This document shows positions 20,692 to 39,464 of a stretch of DNA of 43,376 nt, piece after piece. Source of the DNA: Solobacterium sp. (GTDB taxonomy: Bacteria > Bacillota_I > Bacilli_A > Erysipelotrichales > Erysipelotrichaceae). Each line of letters starts with the position of its first letter. Positions within the stretch are counted from its first letter, which is position 1. The DNA lies in contig JAFRMA010000003.1 of NCBI GenBank assembly GCA_017430925.1, forward strand, positions 1-43,376, read 5' to 3'. Under the pieces are notes generated by a model. The model did no database searches. It saw only the letters and a list, made by a program, of their open reading frames with translations, and had not been told where the DNA came from. The position numbers and the translations under genes were made by a program.

Positions 20692-22179
20692 ATGGCAGAA
20701 AGATATATTATCGGTATTGATCAAAGTACTCAGGGAACAAAGACGATTCTTTTTTCGGACAGCGGTGAAATATTATGCAGAGCTGACCGTCCTCACCGCC
20801 AAATCATTGATGAACGTAATTATGTTGAACATGATCCCGTGGAGATCTATCAGAATACATTGTCCGCAATTCGGGAAATCATTGAAAAAACAGGAATCAA
20901 TAAAGATGAGATTGCCGGTATCGGGATCAGTAATCAGCGTGAGACGACAGTTGCCTGGAACCGTAAAACCGGTGAACCCATTTATAATGCCATCGTATGG
21001 CAGTGTGCCAGAGCAGAGAAGTTATGTCGAGAACTGAATACAGGCGGATTTGATGAGAAAGTAACCAGTATCACAGGTTTAAATTATTCTCCATATTATG
21101 CGGGACCAAAGATGGCCTGGATCATGCAAAATGTTCCGGAAGCACGAAAACTGGCAGAAGAGGGCTCTCTATGTTTCGGCACGATCGATACCTGGCTGTT
21201 ATTCAAACTCAGTGGTAACCAGTCCTTCAAGACGGATTCTTCCAATGCGTCCAGAACCATGTTCATGGATCTGGAAAAACTGTGCTGGGACGAAGAAATC
21301 TGCAGTACCTTTGGTATCCCGGTAGAATGTCTGCCGGAAATCGTCTGTTCCGATGTGAATTTTGGCCTGACTGACCTGGAAGGCTATCTCAATATACCTG
21401 TTCCTGTACATGCGATGTTGGGTGATAGTCATGCGGCGTTGTTCGGGCAGGGTTGTCATGAACCGGGAATGATCAAGGCTACCTATGGTACCGGTTCTTC
21501 CATCATGATGAATGTCGGGGAAAAACCGGTTTCCTGCGAAGGAATTGCGTCATGTGTTGCCTGGGGCAGAAACGGGAAAACACTTTATGTTCTGGAAGGG
21601 AATGTTACCTTTAGTTGTGCGGTAATTACATGGCTCAAGGATGATCTGAAATTAATCGATTCTCCGAAAGACAGCGGTAAACTTGCAAAACTTGCTAATC
21701 CTGAAGATATCACCTGCCTGGTACCTGCGTTTAGTGGTCTTGGAGCACCGCACTGGGACACGGAAGCGAAAGGCACGATCTGCTTTATGACGAGAACTAC
21801 GGGAAGAAATGAGATCGTCAGGGCTGCTGAAGATTCCGTGGCGCATCAGATTACAGATGTCATTGAAACCATGGTAAAGAATGCACATGTGAATGTATCA
21901 GAACTAAGAGTTGACGGCGGTGCCACAAAAGATAAGTATTTGATGCAGTTCCAGAGTGATATGCTGCAATGTGATCTGCTGGTTCCGGATGTGGAGGAAT
22001 TGTCATGTATAGGTGCTGCGTACATGGCAGGTCTTGCTCTGAATGTCTACGATGAGTCTATTTTCAACCGGATCAAGAGAGAACGCTACACACCGGCAAT
22101 GGAAGATGACAAACGGGCAGGAAAGCGTGAACTCTGGAAAAAGGCTGTACACAGTGTGATGACTAATAAAGCTGAATAA
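20692..22179 (+). CDS. FGGY-family carbohydrate kinase, glycerol-kinase-like with altered substrate pocket
   Basis: A 495-residue cytoplasmic sugar kinase that aligns with glycerol kinase almost without gaps: DQSTQGTK (10-17), NQRETT (81-86), IVWQ (101-104), SPYYAGPK (133-140), GDSHAALFGQ (244-253), YGTGSS (265-270), GLGAPHWD and VDGGATKDKYLMQFQSD. Using E. coli GlpK numbering, which coincides here, R83, E84, W103, Y135 and D245 are kept, but Q246 is Ser and F270 is Ser. The fructose-bisphosphate loop (GGKGGTR) is missing. The acceptor is therefore probably not glycerol but a ketose or polyol made in this locus. GGAGGG precedes the ATG. It is the only gene of its transcript, closed by a shared terminator. 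Confidence 0.88.
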   Translation: MAERYIIGIDQSTQGTKTILFSDSGEILCRADRPHRQIIDERNYVEHDPVEIYQNTLSAIREIIEKTGINKDEIAGIGISNQRETTVAWNRKTGEPIYNAIVWQCARAEKLCRELNTGGFDEKVTSITGLNYSPYYAGPKMAWIMQNVPEARKLAEEGSLCFGTIDTWLLFKLSGNQSFKTDSSNASRTMFMDLEKLCWDEEICSTFGIPVECLPEIVCSDVNFGLTDLEGYLNIPVPVHAMLGDSHAALFGQGCHEPGMIKATYGTGSSIMMNVGEKPVSCEGIASCVAWGRNGKTLYVLEGNVTFSCAVITWLKDDLKLIDSPKDSGKLAKLANPEDITCLVPAFSGLGAPHWDTEAKGTICFMTRTTGRNEIVRAAEDSVAHQITDVIETMVKNAHVNVSELRVDGGATKDKYLMQFQSDMLQCDLLVPDVEELSCIGAAYMAGLALNVYDESIFNRIKRERYTPAMEDDKRAGKRELWKKAVHSVMTNKAE

Positions 22180-22248: not shown

Positions 22249-23253
22249 TTACTTATCCCAGATCTTATTTCTGTAATAACAGAATCTGGCATCTCCCTTT
22301 TCATACTGGCGGTCAAAAGGACCGTCCGGACCAAGTTTTCTGCCGAAGCAGAAAGTCATACGTCCGTGACTGTACTCAAGGAAACGTCCCAGCCCGGCAT
22401 CGATGAAGTTCTGTTTCATCTTCGCAAACTTTGGACTTCTGCGGGAATATACGGGTTTACCATCAAGTTCAGAAACATTGGCAATACGGTCTTCGTAGGG
22501 TTCATAGTATTCCTTACCCAAATCCGGATTCTTAAAGAGGAGATCTTCTGCCATTTCCAGATATTGATCTACAAAACGTGCCTCAGCCTGTCCGTTACCT
22601 GCGCATAATAAGTCATACGCATCACGGAAGGAAGCCCACCGCTTCAGATTTTTATAACTATGTTCAACACTAATCCGGCTGTCAAAGAAATGATCATTCA
22701 GTTCATCCCCGCAGAACAAGATGCGTGATTTACGGTCCAGGAAGGATAATGATCCTGTACAGTGTTCAGCAATCGCATAGACTTCCAGAGGTCTGCCTTT
22801 CAGGTTGAATACATCACCATCATGTAAGAAGACTACCGGGTAGTCATCCGGGACATCAATATCCTTGAAATCGCCCATCTTACGGCATCTGCCTTCATAG
22901 CACCACTCACTCATATATACAACATCAAACTGATAGTTATTCAGTGTATGGTCAAAGTGGTTGTGTGTATTGATGATTCTGTACAAAGGTTTTTCCGGGC
23001 AGAGACTCTGGCAGAAATCACGGATACTTCCTGCCCCCATGCCGCTGTCAATGCACAGCAGTTCATCATCTCCTTCAAGAACGTATGTATAGTCACCGTT
23101 GGATAATACAGACCATACACCGTCCGCAAGTTTTGTGGCTTTGAAGTACGGTTCGCTTTCCGGCTGGATGTTGCCCTCAAAATCTTCAATCAAATCTGTC
23201 AGCGAAGACAGATCCAGAGGACCCATGTTCTTTTTCCACTTTAATGTTCCCAT
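22249..23253 (-). CDS. Metallo-beta-lactamase-fold hydrolase, paralogue 1
   Basis: A 334-residue cytoplasmic protein of the MBL superfamily, last gene of the leftward operon. The metal motif is NTHNHFDHT (H97, H99, D101, H102), followed by H164 (AEHCTGS) and D183 (CGDELN). At the place where most family members have the final metal ligand His in a GHG motif, this protein has AGNG (N220). It is closely similar to the two upstream paralogues. The longer open frame starts 9 codons earlier, but GGAG before the ATG at 23253 and the shared family start (xxLKWKK) decide the start. A lactonase or thio/ester hydrolase role is possible but unproven. Confidence 0.85.
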   Translation of the reverse strand: MGTLKWKKNMGPLDLSSLTDLIEDFEGNIQPESEPYFKATKLADGVWSVLSNGDYTYVLEGDDELLCIDSGMGAGSIRDFCQSLCPEKPLYRIINTHNHFDHTLNNYQFDVVYMSEWCYEGRCRKMGDFKDIDVPDDYPVVFLHDGDVFNLKGRPLEVYAIAEHCTGSLSFLDRKSRILFCGDELNDHFFDSRISVEHSYKNLKRWASFRDAYDLLCAGNGQAEARFVDQYLEMAEDLLFKNPDLGKEYYEPYEDRIANVSELDGKPVYSRRSPKFAKMKQNFIDAGLGRFLEYSHGRMTFCFGRKLGPDGPFDRQYEKGDARFCYYRNKIWDK

Positions 23254-23257
23254 AAGT

Positions 23258-24322
23258 CTACTCCTGTTCTTTCTGATCATCTGTAACCGGGAAGATCATC
23301 GAGTCATACTTTTTCCCGACAGGTCCGTCCCAGATGCGATTGCGGTAGTAAGTAAACCTTACACCGTCTTTTTCATACTGACGGTCAAAGATACCATCCG
23401 GTGTAATCTTTCTCAACAGACAGAAACAAATTCTGCCGTTGTTCAGATCCATGGCTTCCTGCCAGCCTGCCGCCTGTAATACAGGTTCAAGGGCATCCAG
23501 ATTTGGGCTTCTGCGGAGGTGTACAGGCTTACCGTCTTTTTCACTGATCGGGGAAATTTTGTCCGCGTAAGGGACATACAGCGCCTGTCCGCAGTCAGGA
23601 TCTTCAAACAATATGTGTTCTGCCATTTCCAGATATTTTTCGATGTAGGATGCGTCATGAATTCCATTACCTGCAGCTAAGATATCATAAGCATCACGGA
23701 AAGAAGCCCATCGTTTCAGATTCTTATAACTTCTCTCTACACTTATCCGGCTGTCAAAGAAATTACCGTTTAACTCATCTCCGCAGAACAGGATACGGGA
23801 TTTTCTGTCCAGGAACTGCAGGGAACCCGGAGCGTGTTCATCAATCGCATAGACTTCCAGAGGTCTGCCCGCCAGGTTGAACACATCACCGTCATGCAGG
23901 AAAACAACAGGGTAATCACCGGGAATACCAAGTGCTTCATGTGAAGGGTCCAGACGGTGACTATATGTCTGAGGCGCCATGTAGACAACATCAAACAGGT
24001 AATTACTCATCGTGTGATCCACATGGAAATGAGTATTAATGATCCGGTATAAAGGTTTCTCAGGGCACAGACTCTGGCAGAATGCACGCAGATTACCTGC
24101 GCCGGAGCCTCCGTCAATACATAACAGCTCATCATCACCCTCGAGGACGTAGGTGTAATCACCATCGCTTAAGACCTGCCAAACACCTTCTGCCATTTTC
24201 ACAGCTTTATAATACGGTTCACTGCGGAGACGTATATCTCCATCTTCATCCATCAGGTATTCATTAGACCAGGAAGGAATATCTATCGCATCCAACCCTT
24301 GTTTCCATTTTAATTCAGCCAT
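23258..24322 (-). CDS. Metallo-beta-lactamase-fold hydrolase, paralogue 2
   Basis: A 354-residue paralogue with the motif NTHFHVDHT (H98, H100, D102, H103), H163 (DEHAPGS), D182 (CGDELN) and again AGNG (N219) instead of the terminal metal-binding His. It differs from its neighbours in VERSYKNLKRW, where the other two have His in place of the Arg, and by a C-terminal extension of about 20 residues (from GPVGKKYDS). The downstream paralogue begins 4 bases after its stop, and the upstream one ends 9 bases before its start, so all three are translated from one message. AGGAGA precedes the ATG. Confidence 0.85.
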   Translation of the reverse strand: MAELKWKQGLDAIDIPSWSNEYLMDEDGDIRLRSEPYYKAVKMAEGVWQVLSDGDYTYVLEGDDELLCIDGGSGAGNLRAFCQSLCPEKPLYRIINTHFHVDHTMSNYLFDVVYMAPQTYSHRLDPSHEALGIPGDYPVVFLHDGDVFNLAGRPLEVYAIDEHAPGSLQFLDRKSRILFCGDELNGNFFDSRISVERSYKNLKRWASFRDAYDILAAGNGIHDASYIEKYLEMAEHILFEDPDCGQALYVPYADKISPISEKDGKPVHLRRSPNLDALEPVLQAAGWQEAMDLNNGRICFCLLRKITPDGIFDRQYEKDGVRFTYYRNRIWDGPVGKKYDSMIFPVTDDQKEQE

Positions 24323-24331
24323 GATATCTCC

Positions 24332-25345
24332 TTATTTATCCCAGATCCGGTTTACGTAATAGCAGAACTTACAATCAAACTTTTCAAGCTGACGATCAAA
24401 CGGACCATCCGGACCAAGTTTACGCATCAGACAGAAACAACCTCTGCCATGATTGAGTTCTACCGCTTTTTCATAACCTGCCTCAATCAGAGGATAAGCA
24501 AGGTCTTCCATGTTCGGACCGCGGCGGGTAATAAGCCTCTTACCATCTTTCTCACGTGCGGAAGCAATATGATCCTCATACGGTACATACCATTCTTCTC
24601 CTTCGTTCTCATGACCGCTGAGGATATATTCCGCAGCTTTCAGATAACGATCAACGTATACGGCATCAGCTATTCCGTTTCCTGCATACATGGTATCGTA
24701 GGCATCTCTCAAGCTTGCCCAGCGTTTCAGGTTACGGTAGCTATGTTCAACACTGATCCGGCTGTCAAAGAAGTGATCGTTTAATTCATCGCCGACAAAG
24801 AACATACGATTCTTTCTGTCCAGAAACTGAAGAGATCCCGGGCAATGTTCTTCAATGTTATAGACTTCAATTGGACGCCCTTTCAGGTTGATTACGTCTC
24901 CATCCTTGAGGAACACCACCGGATAATCCGCAGGAATCTGTTCCTGGATCTTCTCCCAGTCCATAAACATGTTCGCTCTGCCTTCATAGCACTTTTCATG
25001 CATATAGACGACATCAAACTGATAGTTGTTTACTGTGTGGTCCGCATGATTATGGGTGTTGAACAGGCGGTATACTTTCTTGCCCGGTACCAGGCTCTGT
25101 ACAAATTCACGCAGATTTCCGCATCCGTTTCCGCTGTCAATAACAATAGCTTCGTCATCTCCTGCCAGTACATACTGGAAATCTCCCTGTGACAGGATCT
25201 GCCAGGTGTCCGGTCCGATTTCGGTGGCTTTAAAATACGGCTCATCCATAGGCTGAACATTTCCGTCAAAGTCTTCAACGAGAATGTCATGGAACATGGA
25301 GAAGTCCAAGGCACCTAAACCCTTTTTCCACTTAAGTTCTTTCAT
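24332..25345 (-). CDS. Metallo-beta-lactamase-fold hydrolase, paralogue 3
   Basis: A 337-residue paralogue with NTHNHADHT (H98, H100, D102, H103), H167 (EEHCPGS), D186 (VGDELN) and AGNG (N223). The N-terminal 50 residues carry the family-specific EPYFKATEIG and a beta hairpin before the first MBL strand. A GTG five codons upstream could also start the protein, but it overlaps the GAGGA ribosome binding site, so I prefer the ATG at 25345. Three tandem copies with the same missing ligand suggest related substrates rather than redundancy. Confidence 0.85.
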   Translation of the reverse strand: MKELKWKKGLGALDFSMFHDILVEDFDGNVQPMDEPYFKATEIGPDTWQILSQGDFQYVLAGDDEAIVIDSGNGCGNLREFVQSLVPGKKVYRLFNTHNHADHTVNNYQFDVVYMHEKCYEGRANMFMDWEKIQEQIPADYPVVFLKDGDVINLKGRPIEVYNIEEHCPGSLQFLDRKNRMFFVGDELNDHFFDSRISVEHSYRNLKRWASLRDAYDTMYAGNGIADAVYVDRYLKAAEYILSGHENEGEEWYVPYEDHIASAREKDGKRLITRRGPNMEDLAYPLIEAGYEKAVELNHGRGCFCLMRKLGPDGPFDRQLEKFDCKFCYYVNRIWDK

Positions 25346-25356
25346 TTTTTTAATCC

Positions 25357-25575
25357 TCACTTTTCTTTCTGATTCTGTCTGATCATGCGCAGCGTCCGGA
25401 ACAAGAAGAATGCTCCCGCAATCAGGAATAACACCGCAAAGATCAGATAAAATGTACGATGTTCCTCAGGGATCTGAGTGTTTTGTCTGAACATATTCAT
25501 AGAAAGCCAGATCAGACATACAGATACAGCCAGATCCAGAAGCTGGTTGAACGTAACAGGGTTCTGCCCGTTCAT
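25357..25575 (-). CDS. Small membrane protein with two predicted helices
   Basis: A 72-residue protein (82 if the in-frame ATG at 25605 inside the upstream gene is used). Two hydrophobic segments, LLDLAVSVCLIWLSM and TFYLIFAVLFLIAGAFFLF, are joined by a short hydrophilic loop with EEH, and the C terminus is basic (RTLRMIRQNQKEK). It starts 2 bases after the stop of the hydrolase gene, lacks a clear Shine-Dalgarno sequence and probably depends on coupling. Its place within the hydrolase operon suggests a role in tethering the enzymes or in transport, but nothing in the sequence proves that. Confidence 0.6.
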   Translation of the reverse strand: MNGQNPVTFNQLLDLAVSVCLIWLSMNMFRQNTQIPEEHRTFYLIFAVLFLIAGAFFLFRTLRMIRQNQKEK

Positions 25576-25577
25576 GG

Positions 25578-27029
25578 TTATTTCAGGCCACGCTTTCTTG
25601 CGCATTCAATGGTATGACCAAGGTTTGCTTCTCTATCTTCTTCCAGAAGGAATCCTTGAGCCACAAGACGGTTATATTCCTGGTTGACCAGTTCACTATA
25701 GTGTTCCAGGGAACCGTACAGTTCCTGCAGGAATTCTGCGGAGAATGGGTTGACCTTACCAAAAGCACCATTGATTCTGCCATCTTTATAAGTACAGGAG
25801 GAAGAGATACGAGCTGTCGGATAAACCACATACGGGATGCGGATACCACCGAGGCAGTTTCCAAAAGCATCGGTACGGTTATCAGCGTAGACAATACCAA
25901 TTGCCTGTGAAGGAGTAAAAGATGTAGAAACTTCAATTTTCGGCGCGTGCGGGGCAGGAATCCCATTTCTTACCCAAAGGTAAAGAGCTTTCCAGGCAGC
26001 GCTGAATACAGGTTCATACGGGGAATCCAGAGCTTCTCCGTCTACACCGTAGAAGGCATTATATATACCCAGACTTTCCAGCATCTTCAAGTCTTTCTCT
26101 CCGTAATAATCAACGAGATTATATTTACTGTCGTGACTGGATCCTGCAATCTGCCATGTACGGAATTTGAAATCCGGTTCGTCAAAATCTCCATACCAGT
26201 AAGAACCACGGTTCTCACTTTCGGTATTAACTGCGATAAAGGGCTGGGGAGCACCGTTGATACTACTCTGAGGTTCTCCGGCTCCGAGACGGAATGGCTG
26301 TGAATTGCTTAACGGGGCAAGTCCGGCGCTTCCTCCGCCGTTGTAATACCCGTCAAACAGACAAGCGTTCTCTCTTTTGGCAAAGCAGCGTACGATACGG
26401 TTAACATAGCTTGTAGACTGACTCCAACCGGTCAGATATAACCAGATTTTTCCGTATTCCCGGATCGGATTCATTTCACTGTCAGAACGGAGTAGTTTTG
26501 CCAGATCCAGCAACATATCCCAGAACAGTCCTAATTCATACTGAGGCAGATAACGCATCCTGCCGGTTTTTACTTCTTCAGGGACTTCACGTTCCGGCAT
26601 CGGGTTATCCCAGTTGATTGCTTCATAACGCTTTGGGTCAAATCCCTTGAGACTATCTACGACATGACCTTTGGATGAGATACCGACGAAGATATCCCCG
26701 TTCCTGGTCAGATACGGCCAGCTGTTGACCCACATCCGGTCGATATCAATGTTGGCAGAACTGTTCAGGATCTCCAGGACGACATTACCGGAGAACTTTG
26801 ATACATCTGCAGGTCTGCGGATGATCACTCTGGTGGTATATGGAGCGTTCTCATAAATCGGGAATACATTGTGTTCCGCATCTTCGTCATAGACGTTGGC
26901 AGTACCGGTTTGGAAGTATTCGTCTTCGATATAGCCGATTTCATCAAAACGGCATTTGTCAGCAGCTCCCGCAAAGGGAGTAGATGTTTCCGTTGTTGGG
27001 ATGAATTTGAATTCAGTAATTTTATTCAT
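25578..27029 (-). CDS. PF20091-like alpha/beta hydrolase, paralogue 1
   Basis: A 483-residue protein that resembles the 'alpha/beta hydrolase domain' (Abhydrolase_10, PF20091) family, whose substrates are mostly unknown. There is no signal peptide, so it acts inside the cell. Candidate triad: S203 in GWSQST, E270 in VNTESE and H299 in GSSHDS. Other shared blocks are TTRVIIRRPADVSKFSGNV, DRMWVNSWPY, PQYELGLFWDML and KVNPFSAEFLQELYG. It is roughly two-thirds identical by eye to the gene upstream. AAAGGAA precedes the ATG, which lies 15 bases after the stop of its paralogue. Confidence 0.72.
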   Translation of the reverse strand: MNKITEFKFIPTTETSTPFAGAADKCRFDEIGYIEDEYFQTGTANVYDEDAEHNVFPIYENAPYTTRVIIRRPADVSKFSGNVVLEILNSSANIDIDRMWVNSWPYLTRNGDIFVGISSKGHVVDSLKGFDPKRYEAINWDNPMPEREVPEEVKTGRMRYLPQYELGLFWDMLLDLAKLLRSDSEMNPIREYGKIWLYLTGWSQSTSYVNRIVRCFAKRENACLFDGYYNGGGSAGLAPLSNSQPFRLGAGEPQSSINGAPQPFIAVNTESENRGSYWYGDFDEPDFKFRTWQIAGSSHDSKYNLVDYYGEKDLKMLESLGIYNAFYGVDGEALDSPYEPVFSAAWKALYLWVRNGIPAPHAPKIEVSTSFTPSQAIGIVYADNRTDAFGNCLGGIRIPYVVYPTARISSSCTYKDGRINGAFGKVNPFSAEFLQELYGSLEHYSELVNQEYNRLVAQGFLLEEDREANLGHTIECARKRGLK

Positions 27030-27044
27030 GATCTGTTCCTTTCT

Positions 27045-28508
27045 TTAAAGACCTCTGATTTTTGCGTAACTGACAAGGCGACGTACATATTCTTCTCTGT
27101 CTTCCTCCAGAAGGAAACCTTGACTGACGATGCTTGTATAGTCTTCATTGACGAGTTTTGTGTAATGATCAATGTCACCGTATAACTCTTTCAGGAATCC
27201 TGCAGAGAAAGGATTTTCCTTACCGAACGCGCCGTTGACAAAACCGTCTTTATAGGTGCAGAAACAACTGATCCGGGAAGTAGGAAGATTAACTGCAGGA
27301 GTGCGTATTCCACCGCGTGTATTACCGAAGGCATCGGTCAGATGGCGAATATGAAACTTCATACCTCCGATACCCAGGATGCCTTCTTCGGTTCTTTCTG
27401 TTTCAAAACGGGGTGCGTGAGGGGCAGGGACACCATCCGCAGACCAGGCATAGAGAGCTTTCCATGCGGCATTGAACACTGCTTCGTAGTATGTGTCCAG
27501 AGGTTCTCCGTCTACACCATAGTAGGCGTTACGGATACCCATGTCCTCCAGCATCTTCAAATCTTTTTCTCCGTAATATTCTACGAGGTTATAGTTGCTG
27601 TCATGACTGGTTCCGGCAATCTCCCAGACCCTGAATTTAAAATCAGGCTCATCAAAATCTCCATAGAAGTTAGCCATACGGTTGTCACTCTCCGTATTGA
27701 CGGCAATGAAGGGTTTGTGACTGCCCAATACTCCGCTTATCAATCCACTGTTGTCACCGAGTGAAAGAGTCTGGGTATTGTTCAAGGGGGCCATCGTTGA
27801 ACCGCCGCCGCCGTTAAGATATCCGTCATACAGGTTCTCAAGACGACTTCCTTTTTTACAGAACTGTCTGGTCATGCGATTGACATAGAAAGTAGACTGG
27901 CTCCATCCGGTCAGATAAAGCCGGATCTTTCCGTATTCCCGGAGCGGATTCATTTCACAATCGGATTTTAATAAAGCAGAAAGATCAATCAGCATATCCC
28001 AGAATAGTCCAAGTTCATATTGAGGGAGGTAACCAAAGAGACTGTCTCTGACTTCCTGCGGTACGTTTTCGTCTGGATTGGGATTTGCCCAGTTGATGGG
28101 GGCATAGCGCTCCGGATCAAAAGTTTTCAGACTGTCTACGACATGACCTTTGGAAGAGATACCGACATAGATATCACCGTTACGGGTAAAGAAAGGCCAG
28201 CTGTCTACCCACATCCGGTCGATATCGATGTTGGCAGAACTGTTCAGGATCTCCAGAATGACATTGCCGGAGAACATTGATACATCTGCGGGCCTGCGGA
28301 TCAGCACTCGCGTGGTATACGGCGCATCAGCAATCTTAATACTGAGTTCGTGAGATTCGTTTTCATCGTAGACATTTGCAGTTCCGGTCTGGAAGTATTC
28401 ATCTTCTACATAGCCGATTTCCCGGAAACGGCATTTTTCTGCTGCAGCCGCAAAAGGGACGGATTTGGCTGTCACAGGGATAAAATTGAATTCTGTTATC
28501 TGGCTCAT
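27045..28508 (-). CDS. PF20091-like alpha/beta hydrolase, paralogue 2 (first gene of the leftward operon)
   Basis: A 487-residue paralogue of the next gene, with candidate triad S203 (GWSQST), E273 (VNTESD) and H302 (GTSHDS). It carries a few inserted residues before the triad glutamate. The open frame reaches 11 codons further upstream, but AGGAGG six bases before the ATG at 28508 and alignment with paralogue 1 (MSQITEFNFIPV versus MNKITEFKFIPT) set the start. It is transcribed leftward from the region that contains operator site 2 at 28552-28564, so it should respond to the LacI-type regulator. The substrate is unknown. Confidence 0.72.
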   Translation of the reverse strand: MSQITEFNFIPVTAKSVPFAAAAEKCRFREIGYVEDEYFQTGTANVYDENESHELSIKIADAPYTTRVLIRRPADVSMFSGNVILEILNSSANIDIDRMWVDSWPFFTRNGDIYVGISSKGHVVDSLKTFDPERYAPINWANPNPDENVPQEVRDSLFGYLPQYELGLFWDMLIDLSALLKSDCEMNPLREYGKIRLYLTGWSQSTFYVNRMTRQFCKKGSRLENLYDGYLNGGGGSTMAPLNNTQTLSLGDNSGLISGVLGSHKPFIAVNTESDNRMANFYGDFDEPDFKFRVWEIAGTSHDSNYNLVEYYGEKDLKMLEDMGIRNAYYGVDGEPLDTYYEAVFNAAWKALYAWSADGVPAPHAPRFETERTEEGILGIGGMKFHIRHLTDAFGNTRGGIRTPAVNLPTSRISCFCTYKDGFVNGAFGKENPFSAGFLKELYGDIDHYTKLVNEDYTSIVSQGFLLEEDREEYVRRLVSYAKIRGL

Positions 28509-28724: not shown

Positions 28725-29882
28725 ATGAAAATCAGCAAAGAACAATTAGAAAATCGCAGTTTATTAAGTAATTCAGTTATGTGGAATCAACAGCTTTGGG
28801 GCAGATCTAATGCCGGCGTTCCCTACAGTCCTGCAGATATTCCGCCCGCAATCGAAGTGCAGGAGGATGGAAGTGTGGTTTGCCGCTTCTATGCGCTGGA
28901 TGCAGAGAGTGTATCCGTCGGTTATATCCTGGGGGAACAAGTACCTCTGACAAAGGGGGAAAACGGTGTCTGGACAGGAATGATTTCCTTTGAATTTCCG
29001 GGACTGAAAGTAATTACCTGGAGAGTCAACGGGATCGAGGTTATGAACCCGTATGCACCGGTGGGTTACGGATACGGAAGACCAATGAACTATGTGGATA
29101 TTCCCTGTCCCGAACAAGATTATCTGATGATCAAAGATGTCCCGCATGGGAATGTTGTTCGCGAGTGGTTTAAATCAGAGACTACAGGTGAGTGGGAGAG
29201 CTGCCTGGTGTATCTTCCTCCGAAGTATTTTGAAGAAACGGAGAAACGTTATCCTGTACTGTATCTGCAGCATGGCGGATCACAAAATGAAAATGGATGG
29301 ATCTACGAAGCGAAGACAAATTTCATTGCGGATAATCTGTTTGCGGAAGGAAAGGCAGAACCCTGCATTATCGTCATGAACAACGGGATGGTGCAGATGA
29401 AGCAGGAAGATGGTTCCTGGAAGGTGGATACCGATGCTCTGGAGCCATTGCTGATCAATGACTGCATACCGTTTATAGACAATAAATACCGTACAATCCC
29501 AACAGCTTGGGAAAGGGCATATGCAGGTTTATCCATGGGGTCTTTACAGGGGGCAGTCATTTTCCTGAAACATATGGATGTGATTGCGTCAGCAGGTCTG
29601 TTTACCGGGTTTCCTCTGAAGCAGTATGAGTTTGGCCCGAAAGTAGCCTTCAGTCATGAGATTACCGGTGTTTTTGATGATCCGGAAACTTTCAACAGTA
29701 AGTCCAGGTTGTTCTATCTTGCGGTAGGACAAAATGAGCCGTCTGTAGAGATTGTTAAGGATACTTCCGCAGAACTGACAAAGATGGGAATTGACAACGT
29801 ATATATGGACTTCCCGGGTGGTCATGAGTGGCATGTATGGCGTGCATGTCTGTATGACTTCATGCAGAGAATATTTAAATAG
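28725..29882 (+). CDS. Esterase with N-terminal E-set/CBM48-like domain (CE1/enterochelin-esterase-like)
   Basis: A 385-residue cytoplasmic serine esterase. Residues about 40-135 form an early-set beta domain (VVCRFYALDAESVSVGY, GVWTGMISF, ITWRVNGIEVMNPYAP) like those in CE1 feruloyl and acetyl esterases. The catalytic domain begins at about 145 with CLVYLPPKY and YPVLYLQHGG, has the nucleophile elbow GLSMGS (S270) and GGHEWHVW (H367, H370) near the C terminus. No signal peptide is present, unlike most plant-wall feruloyl esterases, so it should act on an imported ester. GGAGGAG precedes the ATG. It begins the rightward operon, 14 bases before the first mutarotase gene. Confidence 0.85.
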   Translation: MKISKEQLENRSLLSNSVMWNQQLWGRSNAGVPYSPADIPPAIEVQEDGSVVCRFYALDAESVSVGYILGEQVPLTKGENGVWTGMISFEFPGLKVITWRVNGIEVMNPYAPVGYGYGRPMNYVDIPCPEQDYLMIKDVPHGNVVREWFKSETTGEWESCLVYLPPKYFEETEKRYPVLYLQHGGSQNENGWIYEAKTNFIADNLFAEGKAEPCIIVMNNGMVQMKQEDGSWKVDTDALEPLLINDCIPFIDNKYRTIPTAWERAYAGLSMGSLQGAVIFLKHMDVIASAGLFTGFPLKQYEFGPKVAFSHEITGVFDDPETFNSKSRLFYLAVGQNEPSVEIVKDTSAELTKMGIDNVYMDFPGGHEWHVWRACLYDFMQRIFK

Positions 29883-32464: not shown

Positions 32465-33289
32465 ATGAACGCGAAACAATTGAAGGATAAAGCAAATACT
32501 CTCCGTATTCATGTCCTGGATGCAATCTATCAAGCAGGAACCGGTCATATCGGCGGAGACTTCAGCGTTATTGATATCTTGACATGTTTATATAACGGCG
32601 TGATGAATGTTTCCCCGGAAACGGTGGATGATCCTGACCGTGACAGATTTGTCTTAAGTAAAGGTCATTCAGTAGAAGCATTCTATGCTGTACTTGCAGA
32701 TAGAGGTTTCTTCCCGATGGAGGACTTCCTTGGTACATTCTCAAAACTTGGCAGTAAATTTATCGGTCACCCCAACAACGAACTTCCAGGGATTGAAATG
32801 AACACAGGTTCCCTGGGACATGGTCTTCCGGTCGGTGTCGGTATGGCACTGGCCGCGAAGCTCGATAAAAAAGACTATCGCGTATATGTGGTTCTTGGAG
32901 ACGGCGAACTGGCAGAAGGCTCTGTCTGGGAAGCGTTCCAGGCTGGTGCACACTTTGGCCTGGATAACCTGATTGCGGTAGTTGACAGAAATATGCTGCA
33001 GATCAGCGGTAATACCGAAGACGTCATGGCTTCCGGTAATGTCGCAGATAAGCTGAGAGTTTACGGTTGGGATGTTGTGGATGTACAGGACGGAAATGAT
33101 CCTGCACAGTTGCTGAAAGCGTTTGAACACTGTAAGGAACGCGCCGGCAAACCACACGCAATCGTTGCTCACACGATAAAGGGATGCGGAGTATCCTTCA
33201 TCCAGAATCAAGCAGGCTGGCATCATCATGTACCAAATAAGGAACAATATGAAAAAGCCATGCAGGAATTGAAAGGACTGGTGAAATAA
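32465..33289 (+). CDS. Transketolase, N-terminal (thiamine diphosphate-binding) subunit
   Basis: A 274-residue subunit of a two-gene transketolase. It has GTGHIGGDFS, LSKGHS, MNTGSLGHGL and the ThDP/Mg motif GDGELAEGSVWEAFQAG followed by VVDRN. It holds only the pyrophosphate-binding domain and needs the next gene for activity. AGAAAGGAG precedes the ATG. Being beside a sugar transporter, a sugar kinase and an isomerase, it is likely a dedicated enzyme acting on the phosphorylated ketose of this pathway, not the main pentose phosphate transketolase. That is an inference from context. Confidence 0.9.
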   Translation: MNAKQLKDKANTLRIHVLDAIYQAGTGHIGGDFSVIDILTCLYNGVMNVSPETVDDPDRDRFVLSKGHSVEAFYAVLADRGFFPMEDFLGTFSKLGSKFIGHPNNELPGIEMNTGSLGHGLPVGVGMALAAKLDKKDYRVYVVLGDGELAEGSVWEAFQAGAHFGLDNLIAVVDRNMLQISGNTEDVMASGNVADKLRVYGWDVVDVQDGNDPAQLLKAFEHCKERAGKPHAIVAHTIKGCGVSFIQNQAGWHHHVPNKEQYEKAMQELKGLVK

Positions 33290-33290
33290 G

Positions 33291-34220
33291 ATGGGAACAG
33301 CTTGTAAACAAGTCATTGCGGATGTTCTTGCAGAAACCGCTCCTAAAGATAAAGATCTGCTCGTTCTGTGCAGTGATTCCCGCGGATCCGGAAGTATCGG
33401 CCCGTTCTACGATAAATTTCCTGCACAGGCAATCGAAGTCGGGATTGCTGAACAAAATCTGGTATCCATATCTGCAGGTCTGGCATCCTGCGGCAAACAT
33501 CCTTACGCAATATCTCCGGCATCCTTCTTATCCACAAGAAGCATTGAACAGATCAAGGTAGATGTCTGCTATTCCAAAACAAACGTAAAACTGATTGGTA
33601 TCAGCGGTGGTGTAAGCTATGGTGCCCTGGGTATGAGTCATCATGCCTGCCAGGATATCGCCATGGTCAGCTGCATTCCCAATATCCGTGTCTATATTCC
33701 AAGTGATCAGTATCTGACAAGATTCATGATGGAAAAACTGGTTAAGGATCAGGAAGCCGCATATGTCCGTGTATCCAGAAATGCTACGGAAGATGTCTAT
33801 ACACCGGAAACAAAGTTTGAATTTGATAAAGCAGTCCTGGTAAAAGACGGTACAGACGCAACGATCATTGCGGTGGGTGAATTTGTGTCCAGAGCGAAGA
33901 AAGCAGCGGAAATCCTGGCGGAAAAGAACATCAGCGTCCGTGTACTGGATATGTACTGTATCAAACCAATAGACAAAGAAGCAGTTATTAAAGCAGCTCA
34001 GGAAACCGGACATATCGTAACTGTAGAAGAGCATTCCATCATTGGTGGTCTCGGATCCATGGTCAGTACAATTACGGCAGAGAACGCTCCCTGCAAAGTA
34101 AAAGTATTAGGTCTTCCGGATGCTGAATTAATCTGCGGTACACAGGAAGAAATCTTCGAACATGAAGGTCTGACACCGGAAGGTATCGCATCTGAAGTAG
34201 AAAAACTGATTGGTAAATAA
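33291..34220 (+). CDS. Transketolase, C-terminal (pyrimidine-binding) subunit
   Basis: A 309-residue partner with the catalytic Glu in VGIAEQNLVSISAGLA, then the STRSIEQIK and SYGALGMSHHACQDIA segments and the C-terminal transketolase domain (DATIIAVGEFVSRA, VRVLDMYCIKPID, HIVTVEEHSIIGGLGS). Its ATG begins one base after the stop of the N-terminal subunit, so equal synthesis by coupling is likely. Split transketolases are known in several bacteria and archaea and in the D-apiose pathway. Confidence 0.9.
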   Translation: MGTACKQVIADVLAETAPKDKDLLVLCSDSRGSGSIGPFYDKFPAQAIEVGIAEQNLVSISAGLASCGKHPYAISPASFLSTRSIEQIKVDVCYSKTNVKLIGISGGVSYGALGMSHHACQDIAMVSCIPNIRVYIPSDQYLTRFMMEKLVKDQEAAYVRVSRNATEDVYTPETKFEFDKAVLVKDGTDATIIAVGEFVSRAKKAAEILAEKNISVRVLDMYCIKPIDKEAVIKAAQETGHIVTVEEHSIIGGLGSMVSTITAENAPCKVKVLGLPDAELICGTQEEIFEHEGLTPEGIASEVEKLIGK

Positions 34221-34278
34221 TATCGGACTATTCCTGGGGAACGAATTCCAGGTAGTTATAGGAAAAAGGAGAAAGAAA

Positions 34279-35382
34279 ATGAAAAAGTTTATTAAATCTC
34301 TTCTGACACTGGGCATGGCAGCTTCTCTGGTTGCTTGTTCCAATGGCGGAGCATCAAACTCACCGGCAGCTACAACAGATTCCACAGCTGGAACTGATGC
34401 ACCTGCAGCTGCTAAAGTCGGCGATGAAGGCAGCATTGCTGTTGTTCGTAACATGACAGCTTCTGACCATACAACTCAGTTCTTCAACGGTTGTATCGCA
34501 GAAGGTAACGCATTAGGTTACACAGTTGATACGTATGTATCTGAAGGCGACGATGCCAAGATGCAGGACCTGCTGGATCAGGTAATCAACAAAGATTACA
34601 ACATTATCGTAATCAGCCACGCAAATGAAGGCTACCAGGCTGAATATGTACAGAAAGCTCTTGATGCAGGTAAGTATGTTGTCTGCTTCGACTGCAACGG
34701 CGAACATGTTCCGGGCGTAACCTATACATCTCAGGGTGATATCACAATGACAACAAAGGCTCTGCAGGCTGTTACTGACAAACTGAAGGAATGCGGCGGC
34801 GCAGAACCTCATCCGTTAGCTGAATACAACACTCTCGGTATGATCATTCCGTTTGATCTCCGTGGTGAAGAAAACCAGAAATGGGCTGACGAAGGCAAGA
34901 TTGAACTGCGTCTCTGCCCGGCTGACTTCAACGATGGTTATAACTCCATTTACAACCATGTAACAAAGATGCTGACAGACTATCCGGATACACCGGTAGG
35001 TATCTTCCTCTGTGCATGCGGCGGTGCTGTTTGTACAGGTGCTCAGGATGCAATCAACGCTCTTGGAAGAAATGAAGATGTATGGTTCGCAGGTATTGAT
35101 ATCTCCAACGAAGTTATCGAACTCATTCAGAGCCAGGAGAACTTCCTTGGTGTAGCTTGCTGCGACCCGTATGTAGTTGGTGTTATCGATGTTCGTATCG
35201 CTGTTCTGAATCAGCATGGCACAGAGACTCCGGAAGTATTTGCTTGTGAAAACGTATTCGTTGGTAAAGAAGATGTTTCCAGCAGCTCTAACATGATGAA
35301 CCTTGCTAAGCCTGGCTTCGGTGATTCTTCTGACTTCAAAGAAGGCATCATTGAAGAACTCCGCGCAAAATACGCTCAGTAA
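34279..35382 (+). CDS. Sugar ABC transporter substrate-binding lipoprotein
   Basis: A 367-residue lipoprotein with lipobox LVAC (Cys20), then a Ser/Ala/Thr/Asp-rich spacer to about residue 55, and a two-lobed RbsB-like domain (NIIVISHANEG, YVVCFDCNGEH, VWFAGIDISNE). It should deliver a monosaccharide or small sugar derivative to the permease. The open frame extends 23 codons upstream, but AAAGGAG before the ATG at 34279 and the signal peptide fix the start. Codon choice is more uniform than in neighbours, as expected for a highly expressed gene. A very stable hairpin follows the stop. Confidence 0.93.
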   Translation: MKKFIKSLLTLGMAASLVACSNGGASNSPAATTDSTAGTDAPAAAKVGDEGSIAVVRNMTASDHTTQFFNGCIAEGNALGYTVDTYVSEGDDAKMQDLLDQVINKDYNIIVISHANEGYQAEYVQKALDAGKYVVCFDCNGEHVPGVTYTSQGDITMTTKALQAVTDKLKECGGAEPHPLAEYNTLGMIIPFDLRGEENQKWADEGKIELRLCPADFNDGYNSIYNHVTKMLTDYPDTPVGIFLCACGGAVCTGAQDAINALGRNEDVWFAGIDISNEVIELIQSQENFLGVACCDPYVVGVIDVRIAVLNQHGTETPEVFACENVFVGKEDVSSSSNMMNLAKPGFGDSSDFKEGIIEELRAKYAQ

Positions 35383-35410
35383 GAAAATATTTGTAGTAAA
35401 GCATAAAATC

Positions 35411-35444
35411 TGTATCGCTGCTGCAGAAATGCAGCAGCGATACA
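35411..35444 (+). promoter_or_regulatory. Strong intercistronic hairpin after the binding-protein gene
   Basis: A perfect 15-bp stem, TGTATCGCTGCTGCA with its complement, closed by a GAAA tetraloop. It lacks a T run, so it more likely protects the 3' end of the upstream mRNA or limits readthrough than terminates completely. Confidence 0.75.
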
Positions 35445-35506
35445 TCTCTTAGTTAAACTTGCCGGATTAATCAGGCAATGAGAAAGAAAAAAGGAATGGT
35501 GGCGTG

Positions 35507-37033
35507 ATGGAAAAACACATTATTGAAATGAAAAACATCGGCGTAGAATTTCCTGGTGTCAAAGCTTTAAAAGGTGTTGATCTGATAATTGAAAGTCAGA
35601 AGGTAACTGCCTTAATCGGGGCTAACGGTGCCGGCAAATCTACATTGATGAAAGTTTTGTCCGGAGTGTATAACCACTACACCGGGCAAATCACAATTGA
35701 CGGCGAAGATGTTGAGATCCGCGAACCGAACACTGCCAAACATTTGGGAATAGAAACCGTATATCAGGAAGTAGATACGGCTTTGGAGCCGAATCTGTCT
35801 GTAGCGGAAAACATCATGGTCGATTATCTGGTAAATGGACTTGGGAAAAAACAGTTCTTTAACTGGAACTATATCTATAAAACATCACAGGATATCCTGG
35901 ATAAACTGGGACTGACAGATATCGATAATCGCCAGCTGGTTGGAACAATGCCTTTGGCAAAAAAACAAATGGTTGTTATTGCACGTGCGGTACTTCGTGA
36001 TTGTCGTTTCCTGGTTCTGGATGAACCTACAGCAGCTCTTTCGGAAGCAGAAACAGAACACTTGTTTGAAATTGTACGCGATCTTAAGAATAACAGAGGT
36101 GTTGGCGTAATCTTTATCTCACACCGATTGAATGAGCTCTTTGAGATCTGTGACACTCTTACCGTACTGCGTGACGGCAACCTGGTCCTGGCAGATCAGC
36201 CTTTGACCAAGGAAACAACGATCAATGACATTGTCCAGTATATGCTTGGTGAAACATACGATAAGGTATTGGACAGAAGCGGAAGAACGATCGGTGAGAA
36301 AGTACTGGAAGTTGAAGGACTGACAGAATTCACCGGTAAGTGTAAGGATTGCTCGTTCTATGTACGGTCTGGTGAAATTGTAGGTATTTCCGGTCTTGTA
36401 GGCGCAGGGAAAACAGAAATGCTGAAGACGCTCTATGCGGCACTTCCTGTTTCTTCCGGAACAGTCAAGGTACATGGTAAGGAAATCAGTCCGAGAATTC
36501 CTGCAGATGCTGTAAAAGCCGGTATCTGTATGATTCCTGAAGAACGACGTAAAGAGGGTCTTGAACTGACCATGAGTGTTGCTTATAACCTTTCCATGGC
36601 TACGCTTGACAAATATTCCGCTAATCCTCTGAAATTTCTGGATAAGAAACAGGAGCGTATAGATGCGGTGAGCAAGGTTGATCAGCTGCATATCGCTACT
36701 CCGAGTATTGATCAGCAGGTTATGTTCCTGTCCGGCGGTAACCAACAGAAAGTTGTTATCGGTAAATGGATCGGGTCTGATGCGGATGTGTTTATCTTTG
36801 ATGAACCGACACAGGGTATCGATGTAGGTGCCAAGCAGGAAGTATATAAGCTCTGTATTGATCTTGCCCGTCAGGGAAAAGCAGTGATCTATTGTACCAG
36901 TGAGACTGGTGAGATTCTGTCTTTGACAGATCGTACATATGTTATGTATGACGGACAAATCCAAAAAGAATTCAATACTGCAGAAACAAATGAACAGGAG
37001 ATTCTGGTTTATTCAACGGGAGGAACCAACTAA
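35507..37033 (+). CDS. Sugar ABC transporter ATP-binding protein (RbsA/MglA-like, two cassettes)
   Basis: A 508-residue protein with two nucleotide-binding domains, as usual for monosaccharide transporters. Cassette 1: Walker A GANGAGKST (38-46) and Walker B LVLDEPTAAL; its signature is degenerate (GTMPLAKKQ). Cassette 2: GLVGAGKTE in the Walker A place, signature LSGGNQQK and FIFDEPTQGID. A GTG one codon upstream is the alternative start. AAGGA lies 11 bases before the ATG. It overlaps the permease gene by one base (TAATG), so the two are translationally coupled. Confidence 0.94.
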   Translation: MEKHIIEMKNIGVEFPGVKALKGVDLIIESQKVTALIGANGAGKSTLMKVLSGVYNHYTGQITIDGEDVEIREPNTAKHLGIETVYQEVDTALEPNLSVAENIMVDYLVNGLGKKQFFNWNYIYKTSQDILDKLGLTDIDNRQLVGTMPLAKKQMVVIARAVLRDCRFLVLDEPTAALSEAETEHLFEIVRDLKNNRGVGVIFISHRLNELFEICDTLTVLRDGNLVLADQPLTKETTINDIVQYMLGETYDKVLDRSGRTIGEKVLEVEGLTEFTGKCKDCSFYVRSGEIVGISGLVGAGKTEMLKTLYAALPVSSGTVKVHGKEISPRIPADAVKAGICMIPEERRKEGLELTMSVAYNLSMATLDKYSANPLKFLDKKQERIDAVSKVDQLHIATPSIDQQVMFLSGGNQQKVVIGKWIGSDADVFIFDEPTQGIDVGAKQEVYKLCIDLARQGKAVIYCTSETGEILSLTDRTYVMYDGQIQKEFNTAETNEQEILVYSTGGTN

Positions 37034-38031
37034 TGGAAAAGAAAAGAAAAATGACTGTCCAGAGATTCTTGGGTGAGTGGGGACCTGTAGTTCTGATTCC
37101 TCTCTTATTCGTGATCTTCTCTATTATCGATTCAAAGAGTTATCTGAGCGCCAATAACGTTCTGAATATTCTTCGTGCTACCTGTATTTACCTCGTTGTT
37201 GGTATGGGTTCTACATTCGCGTTCTCCTGCGGCGTCTTCGATCTGTCCGTAGGCTCGGCGGTGACGATCGGCGGTATGCTGTCAATCTCACTTCAAGCCT
37301 GGTTTGGTATCCCGTGGTTCATCTCGATCCTGCTGGTTGTCTGTGCCGGATGTCTGATTGGTATTATTAACTCCATGCTTGTCTTGAAGTTCAACATCAA
37401 TGGTATGTTGGCAACATTATCCATGCAGTTTATTCTGAACGGTGTCGCGTTAACATACTCTGCAGGCCAGGTTGTTACAGCCACAAAGGCGAATCGTCCC
37501 GGTCAGATTATTCAGGGTACTGTACCGGATGTCTTCTGGAATCTTGGTAAAGCGCCGTGGATCATCATCTTCGCATTCCTCTGCGTATTAATTGTATTCG
37601 TCTTCCAGAACTTTGTTAAACACGGAAGATATCTGTATATGGTTGGTGAGAATGCTGAAGCCGCAAGACTTTCCGGTATCAATGTCAATGCTTACAGAAC
37701 ATTCGCCTTCATCATGACTGGTGTATTCGCCTGCCTGGGCGGTATGATCATGGCGGCTCGTAACGGATCTGTTGCGACCAATGCCGGTGGTTCTTACCTG
37801 ATGCCTGCAATTGCTGCCGTAAATATCGGACGTACTGTAGCAGGTATCAATAAGCCTAACGCTCTCGGTACATTTGTCGGTGTCCTGCTATGGGTCATTC
37901 TTGACAATGGTCTGATCATGGTTGGTGTTCCTTACTACATGGTTGATATTGCCAAGGGTATCGTACTGTTGCTGGCAATGATGGTCACAAGCTACCAGCC
38001 CACAGGGAAAAAGCTTGGCAAGAAAAAATAG
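37033..38031 (+). CDS. Sugar ABC transporter permease (RbsC-like)
   Basis: A 332-residue inner-membrane permease of the BPD_transp_2 family with about nine to ten helices. The family markers FAFSCGVFDLSVGSAV, MVGENAEAARLSGINV and the ARNGSVATNAGGSYLMPAIAAV stretch are present. It forms the channel for the lipoprotein and ATPase encoded upstream. The start codon overlaps the stop of the ATPase gene. It is followed after 21 bases by the isomerase-like gene, and the substrate should be the sugar the isomerase and kinase process. Confidence 0.94.
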   Translation: MEKKRKMTVQRFLGEWGPVVLIPLLFVIFSIIDSKSYLSANNVLNILRATCIYLVVGMGSTFAFSCGVFDLSVGSAVTIGGMLSISLQAWFGIPWFISILLVVCAGCLIGIINSMLVLKFNINGMLATLSMQFILNGVALTYSAGQVVTATKANRPGQIIQGTVPDVFWNLGKAPWIIIFAFLCVLIVFVFQNFVKHGRYLYMVGENAEAARLSGINVNAYRTFAFIMTGVFACLGGMIMAARNGSVATNAGGSYLMPAIAAVNIGRTVAGINKPNALGTFVGVLLWVILDNGLIMVGVPYYMVDIAKGIVLLLAMMVTSYQPTGKKLGKKK

Positions 38032-38052: not shown

Positions 38053-39464
38053 ATGGCTAAACAGACATTTGGTGTAATTGTATCGACAAGAAGCTTCTTC
38101 CCCTCCAGTCTGGTTAAAGGCGCTCGTGAAGGTATTGTAAAAGTACTGGAAAAACTGGGACATGACTATGTCATGGTCGGAGAAAATGATACGGAATACG
38201 GTGCTGTACTGACCTATGATGAGGCCAAGACATGTGCAAAGCTGTTCCGTGAACACCAGGATGAGATCTCCGGTATCATCGTCGTCCTGCCGAACTTCGG
38301 TGAGGAACTCGGTATTGCGGAAGCGATCTCTCTATCCAAATTGAATGTACCGATCCTGATCCAGGCTTGTGATGATGACTTTGACCAGTTGGATATGGCG
38401 CATAGAAGAGATGCTTTCTGCGGTAAGATCTCCCTCTGTAATAACCTCTATCAGAGAAATATCCCGTTCACTCTGACAAAGACACATACCTGCAGACTCG
38501 ACAGCGCTGATTTTGAAGAAGATGTCAAGAAGTTTGCGGCAGTATGTAACGTGGTAAAGGGTATTCGTTCTGCACGTATTGCGATGCTTGGCGCACGTCC
38601 TGTTGCGTTCAACACTGTGCGTTTCTCTGAAAGATCCTGCAGAAGTATGGTATTGCGATCCAGACTGTTGATTTCAGCGAAGTAATCTTTGAAGCGATGA
38701 AATATGCGGATGAAGAAAAGGTCGCTGCAAAAGTACAGGAAATCCGTGAATACGGTGATGTTGCTCCGTTTATCACTGATGATCTGCTGGTTAAGCAGGC
38801 AAAACTGTGTCTGGCAATCGAAGAACAGGTTGAGAAGTATCAGTGCTGCGCAAGTACGGTACAGTGCTGGGACAGCGTAGAGAACAACTATGGTTGTGCA
38901 ACATGTCTCGCAATGAGCATGATGGGTGATAAGGGCAAACCTTCTGCATGTGAAAGTGATATTACAGGTGCGGTTTCCATGCTGGCATCCTATCTGGCAA
39001 CAGATACAGCTCCTGCCCTGATGGATTGGAACAACAATATCCGTGAGAATAGAAATAAATGTATCTGTCTGCACTGCAGCAACTTCCCGAAGAGTTTCTT
39101 CCAGAAGGATAACATTGAGATTGAATGTCTTGATGTCTTAGGAAGTACTTTAGGAAAACCGAACTGCTTCGGAGCATGTAAGGGTCAGGTAGCCGGAGGC
39201 GATATGACGTTCTTCCGTGTGACAACCGATGATCAGAAAGGTGTCATGAGAGCCTATGTCGGTGAAGGCAGCTTTGAAGATGAGACTGTAGAAACTAAGG
39301 GCGGCGTCGCGAATTGCTATGTTGAGGGTCTGCAGGATCTGCTGAAGTACATCTGCAAGAACGGATTTGAACACCATGTGTGCTTTGTCCGCGGACATGT
39401 CGCAGATATTCTCGAAGAAGCATTCACTACATACCTTGGTGTAGAAGTATATCGTCATAACTAA
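38053..39464 (+). pseudogene. L-fucose/L-arabinose isomerase-family gene with a single-base frameshift
   Basis: Two frames together make a full-length protein of about 470 residues of the L-fucose/L-arabinose isomerase family. The first (38053-38685) reads to ARPVAFNTVRFSE and then runs off in a wrong frame to a stop. The correct continuation (KILQKYGIAIQTVDFSEVIF, then into 38697-39464) is in the -1 frame. The break is at the GAAAG of 38629-38633, where one more A would restore the frame. The second part has the conserved CWDSVE, the SACESDITG acidic metal-binding-type block and LHCSNFP. It is probably the aldose-ketose isomerase of the pathway. The frameshift may be a real mutation or an assembly error; a slippery heptamer is not obvious. 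Confidence 0.82.

Follow-up and report, generated by a model that had tools for sequence, protein, structure and literature searches.

MBL-fold proteins lacking the motif-5 histidine form a clade in Erysipelotrichaceae

How can three neighbouring MBL-fold proteins share the loss of a metal ligand and still be kept by selection? The motif-5 histidine belongs to the constant ligands of the MBL superfamily, and here it has been lost throughout a clade that remains under strong selection. The question arises from positions 1 to 43,376 of a contig of Solobacterium sp. (GCA_017430925.1, JAFRMA010000003.1), a stretch of 43,376 nucleotides called the window below. A natural clade without this His, in which the other ligands are kept, offers a ready experiment on how important the second metal is and how it can be replaced, and the operon links of the genes point to an undescribed step of sugar catabolism in Erysipelotrichaceae of the gut and rumen.

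Three tandem proteins and the position of their asparagine

A first-pass annotation had described three tandem MBL-fold open reading frames with AGNG at N220, N219 and N223, and had held that HxHxDH, the later His and the Asp of GDELN were retained. Both statements proved right in all three frames, including the residue numbering (Table 1). Motif 2 (HxHxDH), the motif-3 His and the motif-4 Asp of the MBL superfamily are thus all present in MBL1-MBL3, whereas the motif-5 His of the canonical di-metal site is absent and AGNG stands in its place. The proteins are 57-63% identical in pairwise comparisons. Their sole Pfam match is PF00753 (53-58 bits against a cut-off of 22.7), no NCBIfam model assigned any of the three above its cut-off, and inspection by eye revealed no evident signal peptide at the starts of the MBL or Abhydrolase_10 proteins.

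Table 1. Coordinates of the MBL genes, their ligand motifs and neighbouring features in the window
Feature	Positions	Strand	Basis or remark
FGGY kinase, glycerol-kinase subfamily	20692..22179	+	convergent with MBL3
MBL3: MBL-fold protein, 334 aa, HNHFDH / EHCTGS / GDELN / AGNG	22249..23253	-	ORF, Pfam PF00753 E 3e-14; start taken at an internal ATG aligned with the MBL1 and MBL2 starts, the ORF itself opening at 23280
MBL3 N220 codon, motif-5 position	22594..22596	-	
MBL2: MBL-fold protein, 354 aa, HFHVDH / EHAPGS / GDELN / AGNG	23258..24322	-	ORF, Pfam PF00753 E 1e-15
MBL2 N219 codon, motif-5 position	23666..23668	-	
MBL1: MBL-fold protein, 337 aa, HNHADH / EHCPGS / GDELN / AGNG	24332..25345	-	ORF, Pfam PF00753 E 5e-14, AF2 model pLDDT 89
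MBL1 N223 codon, motif-5 position (His263 in BBL numbering)	24677..24679	-	
MBL1 motif 4, GDELN (D186)	24779..24793	-	conserved across alignment
MBL1 motif 3, E166-H167	24845..24850	-	Glu where Gly often precedes the motif-3 His
MBL1 motif 2, HNHADH (H98, H100, D102, H103)	25037..25054	-	sequence; invariant positions
82-aa ORF	25357..25605	-	hydrophobic by eye, no Pfam match; between Abhydrolase_10 gene and MBL1
Abhydrolase_10 (PF20091) protein	25578..27029	-	E 9e-97; upstream in MBL gene run
Second Abhydrolase_10 protein	27045..28508	-	E 5e-95
Putative esterase (PF00756)	28725..29882	+	E 5e-16; divergent from MBL run
Split transketolase, N and C halves	32465..34220	+	
Sugar ABC importer: binding protein, ATPase, permease	34210..38031	+	
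L-fucose-isomerase-like gene	38053..39464	+	broken by frameshift in this assembly

In the MBL fold, zinc is bound in site 1 by His116, His118 and His196, and in site 2 by Asp120, Cys221/His121 and His263, the last of which is motif 5 (PMC7785958); the geometry of His263 is set by the adjacent Gly262 (PMC5018959). We modelled MBL1 with AlphaFold from an alignment of 18 window and locus proteins (pLDDT 89, pTM 0.89). The best structural matches of the model were B1 zinc beta-lactamases, spanning residues 37-239, and the top solved structure was BcII (Z 20.0, rmsd 3.0, 191 residues aligned). N223 follows a strand (218-221) in a G222-N223 loop. In a profile match to LACTB2, DIIYPGHG stands opposite DTMYAGNG of MBL1; this ungapped reading is our own, the HMMER alignment having put a small insertion in that segment. 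In addition, the Gly preceding the Asn is invariant in the aligned core proteins and corresponds to the Gly262 that lies beside His263 (PMC5018959). Model and alignment together place the Asn of AGNG at motif 5, the predicted position of the site-2 ligand His263. Neither finding that the first-pass annotation had named as contrary to its reading came up. In the MBL1 model the AGNG loop sits at the motif-5 position, and no other His appeared to complete the site: the only histidines invariant across 11 core proteins were H98, H100, H103 and H167, and no other conserved His was found among them. Acidic and amide residues that are invariant in the core and variable in relatives include E166, D194, D258, D317 and N189.

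A clade without the motif-5 histidine

The motif-5 Asn was invariant in 12/12 core proteins, three from the window and nine from seven other genomes; this count includes the MBL3 of genome G031, whose in-frame stop lies upstream of the motifs. Because the window copies are paralogs, their agreement does not amount to three independent observations; it is the nine relatives from the other genomes that supply independent evidence. Two sister proteins carry Pro and Gly, respectively, at this position, and the other MBL genes of the same genome that were readable at motif 5 all encode His (22/22), a contrast beyond chance. In a tree of 60 rows (12 Asn, 46 His and a single Pro and a single Gly, the labels having been verified visually), the Asn, Pro and Gly proteins formed a single His-less clade with support of 100/99, within which the Asn proteins formed a subclade (99/97); support was weak for the order in which the Pro and Gly lineages branch (94/47). 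The earlier proposal that the residue defines a subfamily is therefore upheld by the tree. Invariance of the Asn among homologues held throughout the core and failed in the two sisters; since these have Pro or Gly, the defining trait is better described as loss of the motif-5 His, with Asn marking only the core clade. Because all three types fall into one clade, the simplest history is a single loss of the His, followed by fixation of Asn in the core group. The Asn could have arisen by deletion of the His from GHNG or by a His-to-Asn substitution; both routes are possible because three relatives (L025, L033 and L050) read (G/P)HN at motif 5, and the His is absent either way.

The search of the family yielded members in eight genomes belonging to four genera (G000, G031, G070, G049, G048, G163, G210 and G226), and members occur in two public records, L001 (Solobacterium sp., roe deer jejunum) and L002 (RUG14114, an Erysipelotrichaceae MAG). 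Samples drawn class-wide (395 genomes) and phylum-wide (392, overlapping) contained no relative at E <= 1e-35 beyond this genome. With the Pro-type sister as the seed, no further Pro-type members came up, and plasmid records contained only MBL proteins of 24-31% identity. Among the genomes sampled, the His-less clade was found only in Erysipelotrichaceae.

The family of MBL1-MBL3 is under strong purifying selection. Comparison of MBL3 with its orthologs in G031 and L002 gave dN/dS values of 0.015 and 0.016, and that of MBL2 with its L002 ortholog gave 0.04, these being the measurable pairs, as dS was saturated in the remaining ones. The initial judgement that the shared change was unlikely to be decay is supported by these values. 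Relaxed constraint or an assembly error in one genome might be suspected from the in-frame TGA at a conserved Trp of the G031 MBL3 and from the frameshifted isomerase-like gene of the window, but the identical Asn in eight genomes of four genera and the low dN/dS make this explanation extremely improbable. A second explanation is that these are catalytically dead MBL-fold proteins with a binding or regulatory role. One site-2 ligand is indeed missing, and loss of metal binding is known in class-C flavodiiron proteins and in one Trz1 domain (PMC7785958); however, the 14 His-less proteins share all their remaining ligand motifs without variation, selection is strong, and the class-C flavodiiron proteins are altered at several motifs. 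We consider dead proteins quite unlikely.

Several lesions and further MBL genes were observed beside this clade. The TGA of the G031 ortholog of MBL3 (L001 8089-9090), a gene that is otherwise conserved, reflects either true damage to the gene or a mistake in the assembly. A fragment in L037 (4951-5278; G016:C19) is approximately 80% identical to part of MBL3, has a stop within the match and represents a decayed relative. The 2.7 Mb genome holds at least 25 MBL genes, including the three of the window. Two arrays of MBL-fold genes with a normal motif-5 His, of about seven and about six genes, lie in L048 (G000:C72, 2428-10492) and L049 (G000:C112, 2925-12596), respectively. A separate short MBL family, found at L016, L018-L024, L026-L029, L032 and L051, reads HADRDH at motif 2, with Asp for the second His, and keeps the motif-5 His.

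Sugar genes and the proposed reaction

Besides the genes in Table 1, the window encodes a carboxylesterase and two FucU-type mutarotases. The 82-aa frame overlaps the adjoining Abhydrolase_10 gene by 28 bases, and an intact close relative of the frameshifted isomerase-like gene (about 90% identical) is present in G226 (L042 10109-11521). Several relatives of the MBL genes have a sugar kinase or a sugar ABC permease as their immediate neighbour. In G226, an FGGY kinase follows the MBL gene after 4 nt, and a fucose-isomerase-like gene and a split transketolase are divergent from this pair; in G048, the isomerase-like gene, the transketolase halves, the kinase and, after 11 nt, the MBL gene follow one another on one strand; and in G049, a sugar ABC permease lies 19 nt ahead of the MBL gene. 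In L002, an FGGY kinase, a mannitol-dehydrogenase-type protein and a zinc alcohol dehydrogenase adjoin MBL3. The sugar context is absent from the G163 and G210 loci.

The D-apiose cluster of E. coli consists of a kinase, two transketolase subunits and an importer (PMC13001218), and the window cluster has a set of this type (aplK, aptA, aptB), namely an FGGY kinase, two transketolase subunits and a sugar ABC importer. Identity to the proteins of E. coli SE15 was 37% for the kinase, 47% for aptA, 35% for aptB, 37% for the ATPase and 28% for the permease, all of them members of broad families. As regards a possible apulose specificity of the kinase and transketolase, the window kinase scored 559 bits against the GlpK subfamily, and the isomerase-like gene belongs with the fucose isomerases. 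A literature search on split transketolases and PF20091 gave nothing useful.

Because selection is strong and most relatives occur in sugar-uptake operons, the three proteins are probably working sugar-ester or sugar-lactone hydrolases. We put at roughly 55% the probability that the three paralogs are active metallohydrolases of this kind with site 1 intact and site 2 either completed by Asn and water or weakly occupied; both the sugar and the reaction have been guessed from the neighbouring genes. An ancestor lost the motif-5 His, the usual site-2 ligand, and the core clade carries Asn there, its other ligand motifs having been kept intact by strong purifying selection. Under the proposal, site 1 (H98, H100 and H167, with D186) would hold the catalytic metal and its hydroxide. 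Site 2 (D102, H103 and D186) might be completed by the amide oxygen of the Asn and a water molecule, or might be weakly occupied, giving the substrate room. The enzymes, presumably cytoplasmic, would hydrolyse the ester or lactone form of a sugar taken up by the cell, which would then be isomerised, phosphorylated and split by transketolase. Sugar-lactone hydrolysis of the UlaG type was considered as a functional model only, and the Pfam scan placed no UlaG-type family here.

Asn can serve as a zinc ligand in an MBL-fold enzyme, as Asn216 does in Chd (PMC12784990), but such ligation is not needed across the wider clade because the sisters carry Pro or Gly. Site 2 may still bind metal, since H103, whose only ligand role is in site 2, does not vary even in these sisters. 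Losing the motif-5 ligand can be costly, given that the H263A change in CphA lowered kcat/Km for imipenem more than 100-fold (PMC5018959), although this effect is not directly transferable because CphA uses site 2 alone.

The proteins may instead be mononuclear enzymes, hydrolytic or, like persulfide dioxygenases, redox, with Zn or Fe in site 1 only and with D102, H103 and N223 forming a substrate pocket or supplying a general base. Site 2 is expected to be weaker without its fifth ligand, Pro and Gly in the sisters show that the motif-5 position can lack a ligand, and human ETHE1 binds a single Fe by His79, His135 and Asp154, its site-2 residues being empty (PMC4383860). Against this, the invariance of H103 in every His-less protein found suggests that site 2 still matters, ETHE1 retains its motif-5 His and is no direct parallel, and the neighbouring genes include no sulfur partner. 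A single metal is thus a possible but less probable arrangement than the hydrolases with a modified site 2 proposed above. Membership of a persulfide dioxygenase family was dropped because the gene context gives it no support, and this enzyme was considered only for its mechanism. More speculative, and rather doubtful, is the idea that the clade has permanently dropped the motif-5 ligand in favour of a centre that has one metal or is completed by the substrate, in which Asn would be a new active-site residue serving a reaction of sugar catabolism new to the superfamily. The altered metal site or different chemistry suggested at first is still an inference.

Comparison with known systems

Among solved structures, LACTB2 (PDB 4ad9) was the best sequence match in the profile search, whereas a single-sequence phmmer search of the PDB with MBL1 gave no match. 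LACTB2 shares with MBL1 the MBL fold, HxHxDH, the motif-3 His, the motif-4 Asp and the aligned strand and loop; in contrast, it is an RNA hydrolase whose motif-5 residue is His (PMC7785958), and the overall relationship is remote (profile E 5e-14). Glyoxalase II, or hydroxyacylglutathione hydrolase (TIGR03413), is likewise an MBL-fold hydrolase with a partial profile match, but MBL1-MBL3 scored 24.6-33.2 bits against this GloB model, below its cut-off of 200.8, and the motif-5 residue of glyoxalase II, His173, is a ligand of Zn2 (PMC4383860). The zinc beta-lactamase core model NF012229 gave 20.9-22.8 bits, also below its cut-off (100).

The persulfide dioxygenase ETHE1 of humans combines the MBL fold with metal in site 1 only; unlike MBL1-MBL3, it keeps His195 at motif 5 and is an iron oxygenase, not a sugar-operon protein (PMC4383860). 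Two further proteins have an amide residue among their metal ligands. The chlorothalonil dehalogenase Chd (PDB 6uxu) has the MBL fold with Asn as a catalytic zinc ligand, and the MBL1 model matched it over residues 32-337 (VIA Z 19.1, rmsd 3.8, 243 residues aligned). Unlike in MBL1, His257 is still a ligand in Chd (PMC12784990), and we read the ligands listed in PMC12784990 as placing Asn216 apparently where motif 4 normally has its bridging Asp, with site 2 occupied. Finally, the MBL-fold ODP of Thermotoga maritima has Gln as an unusual motif-5 ligand (PMC7785958); it differs from MBL1 in being a diiron oxygen sensor whose Gln substitutes for the third His of motif 2 (PMC7785958).
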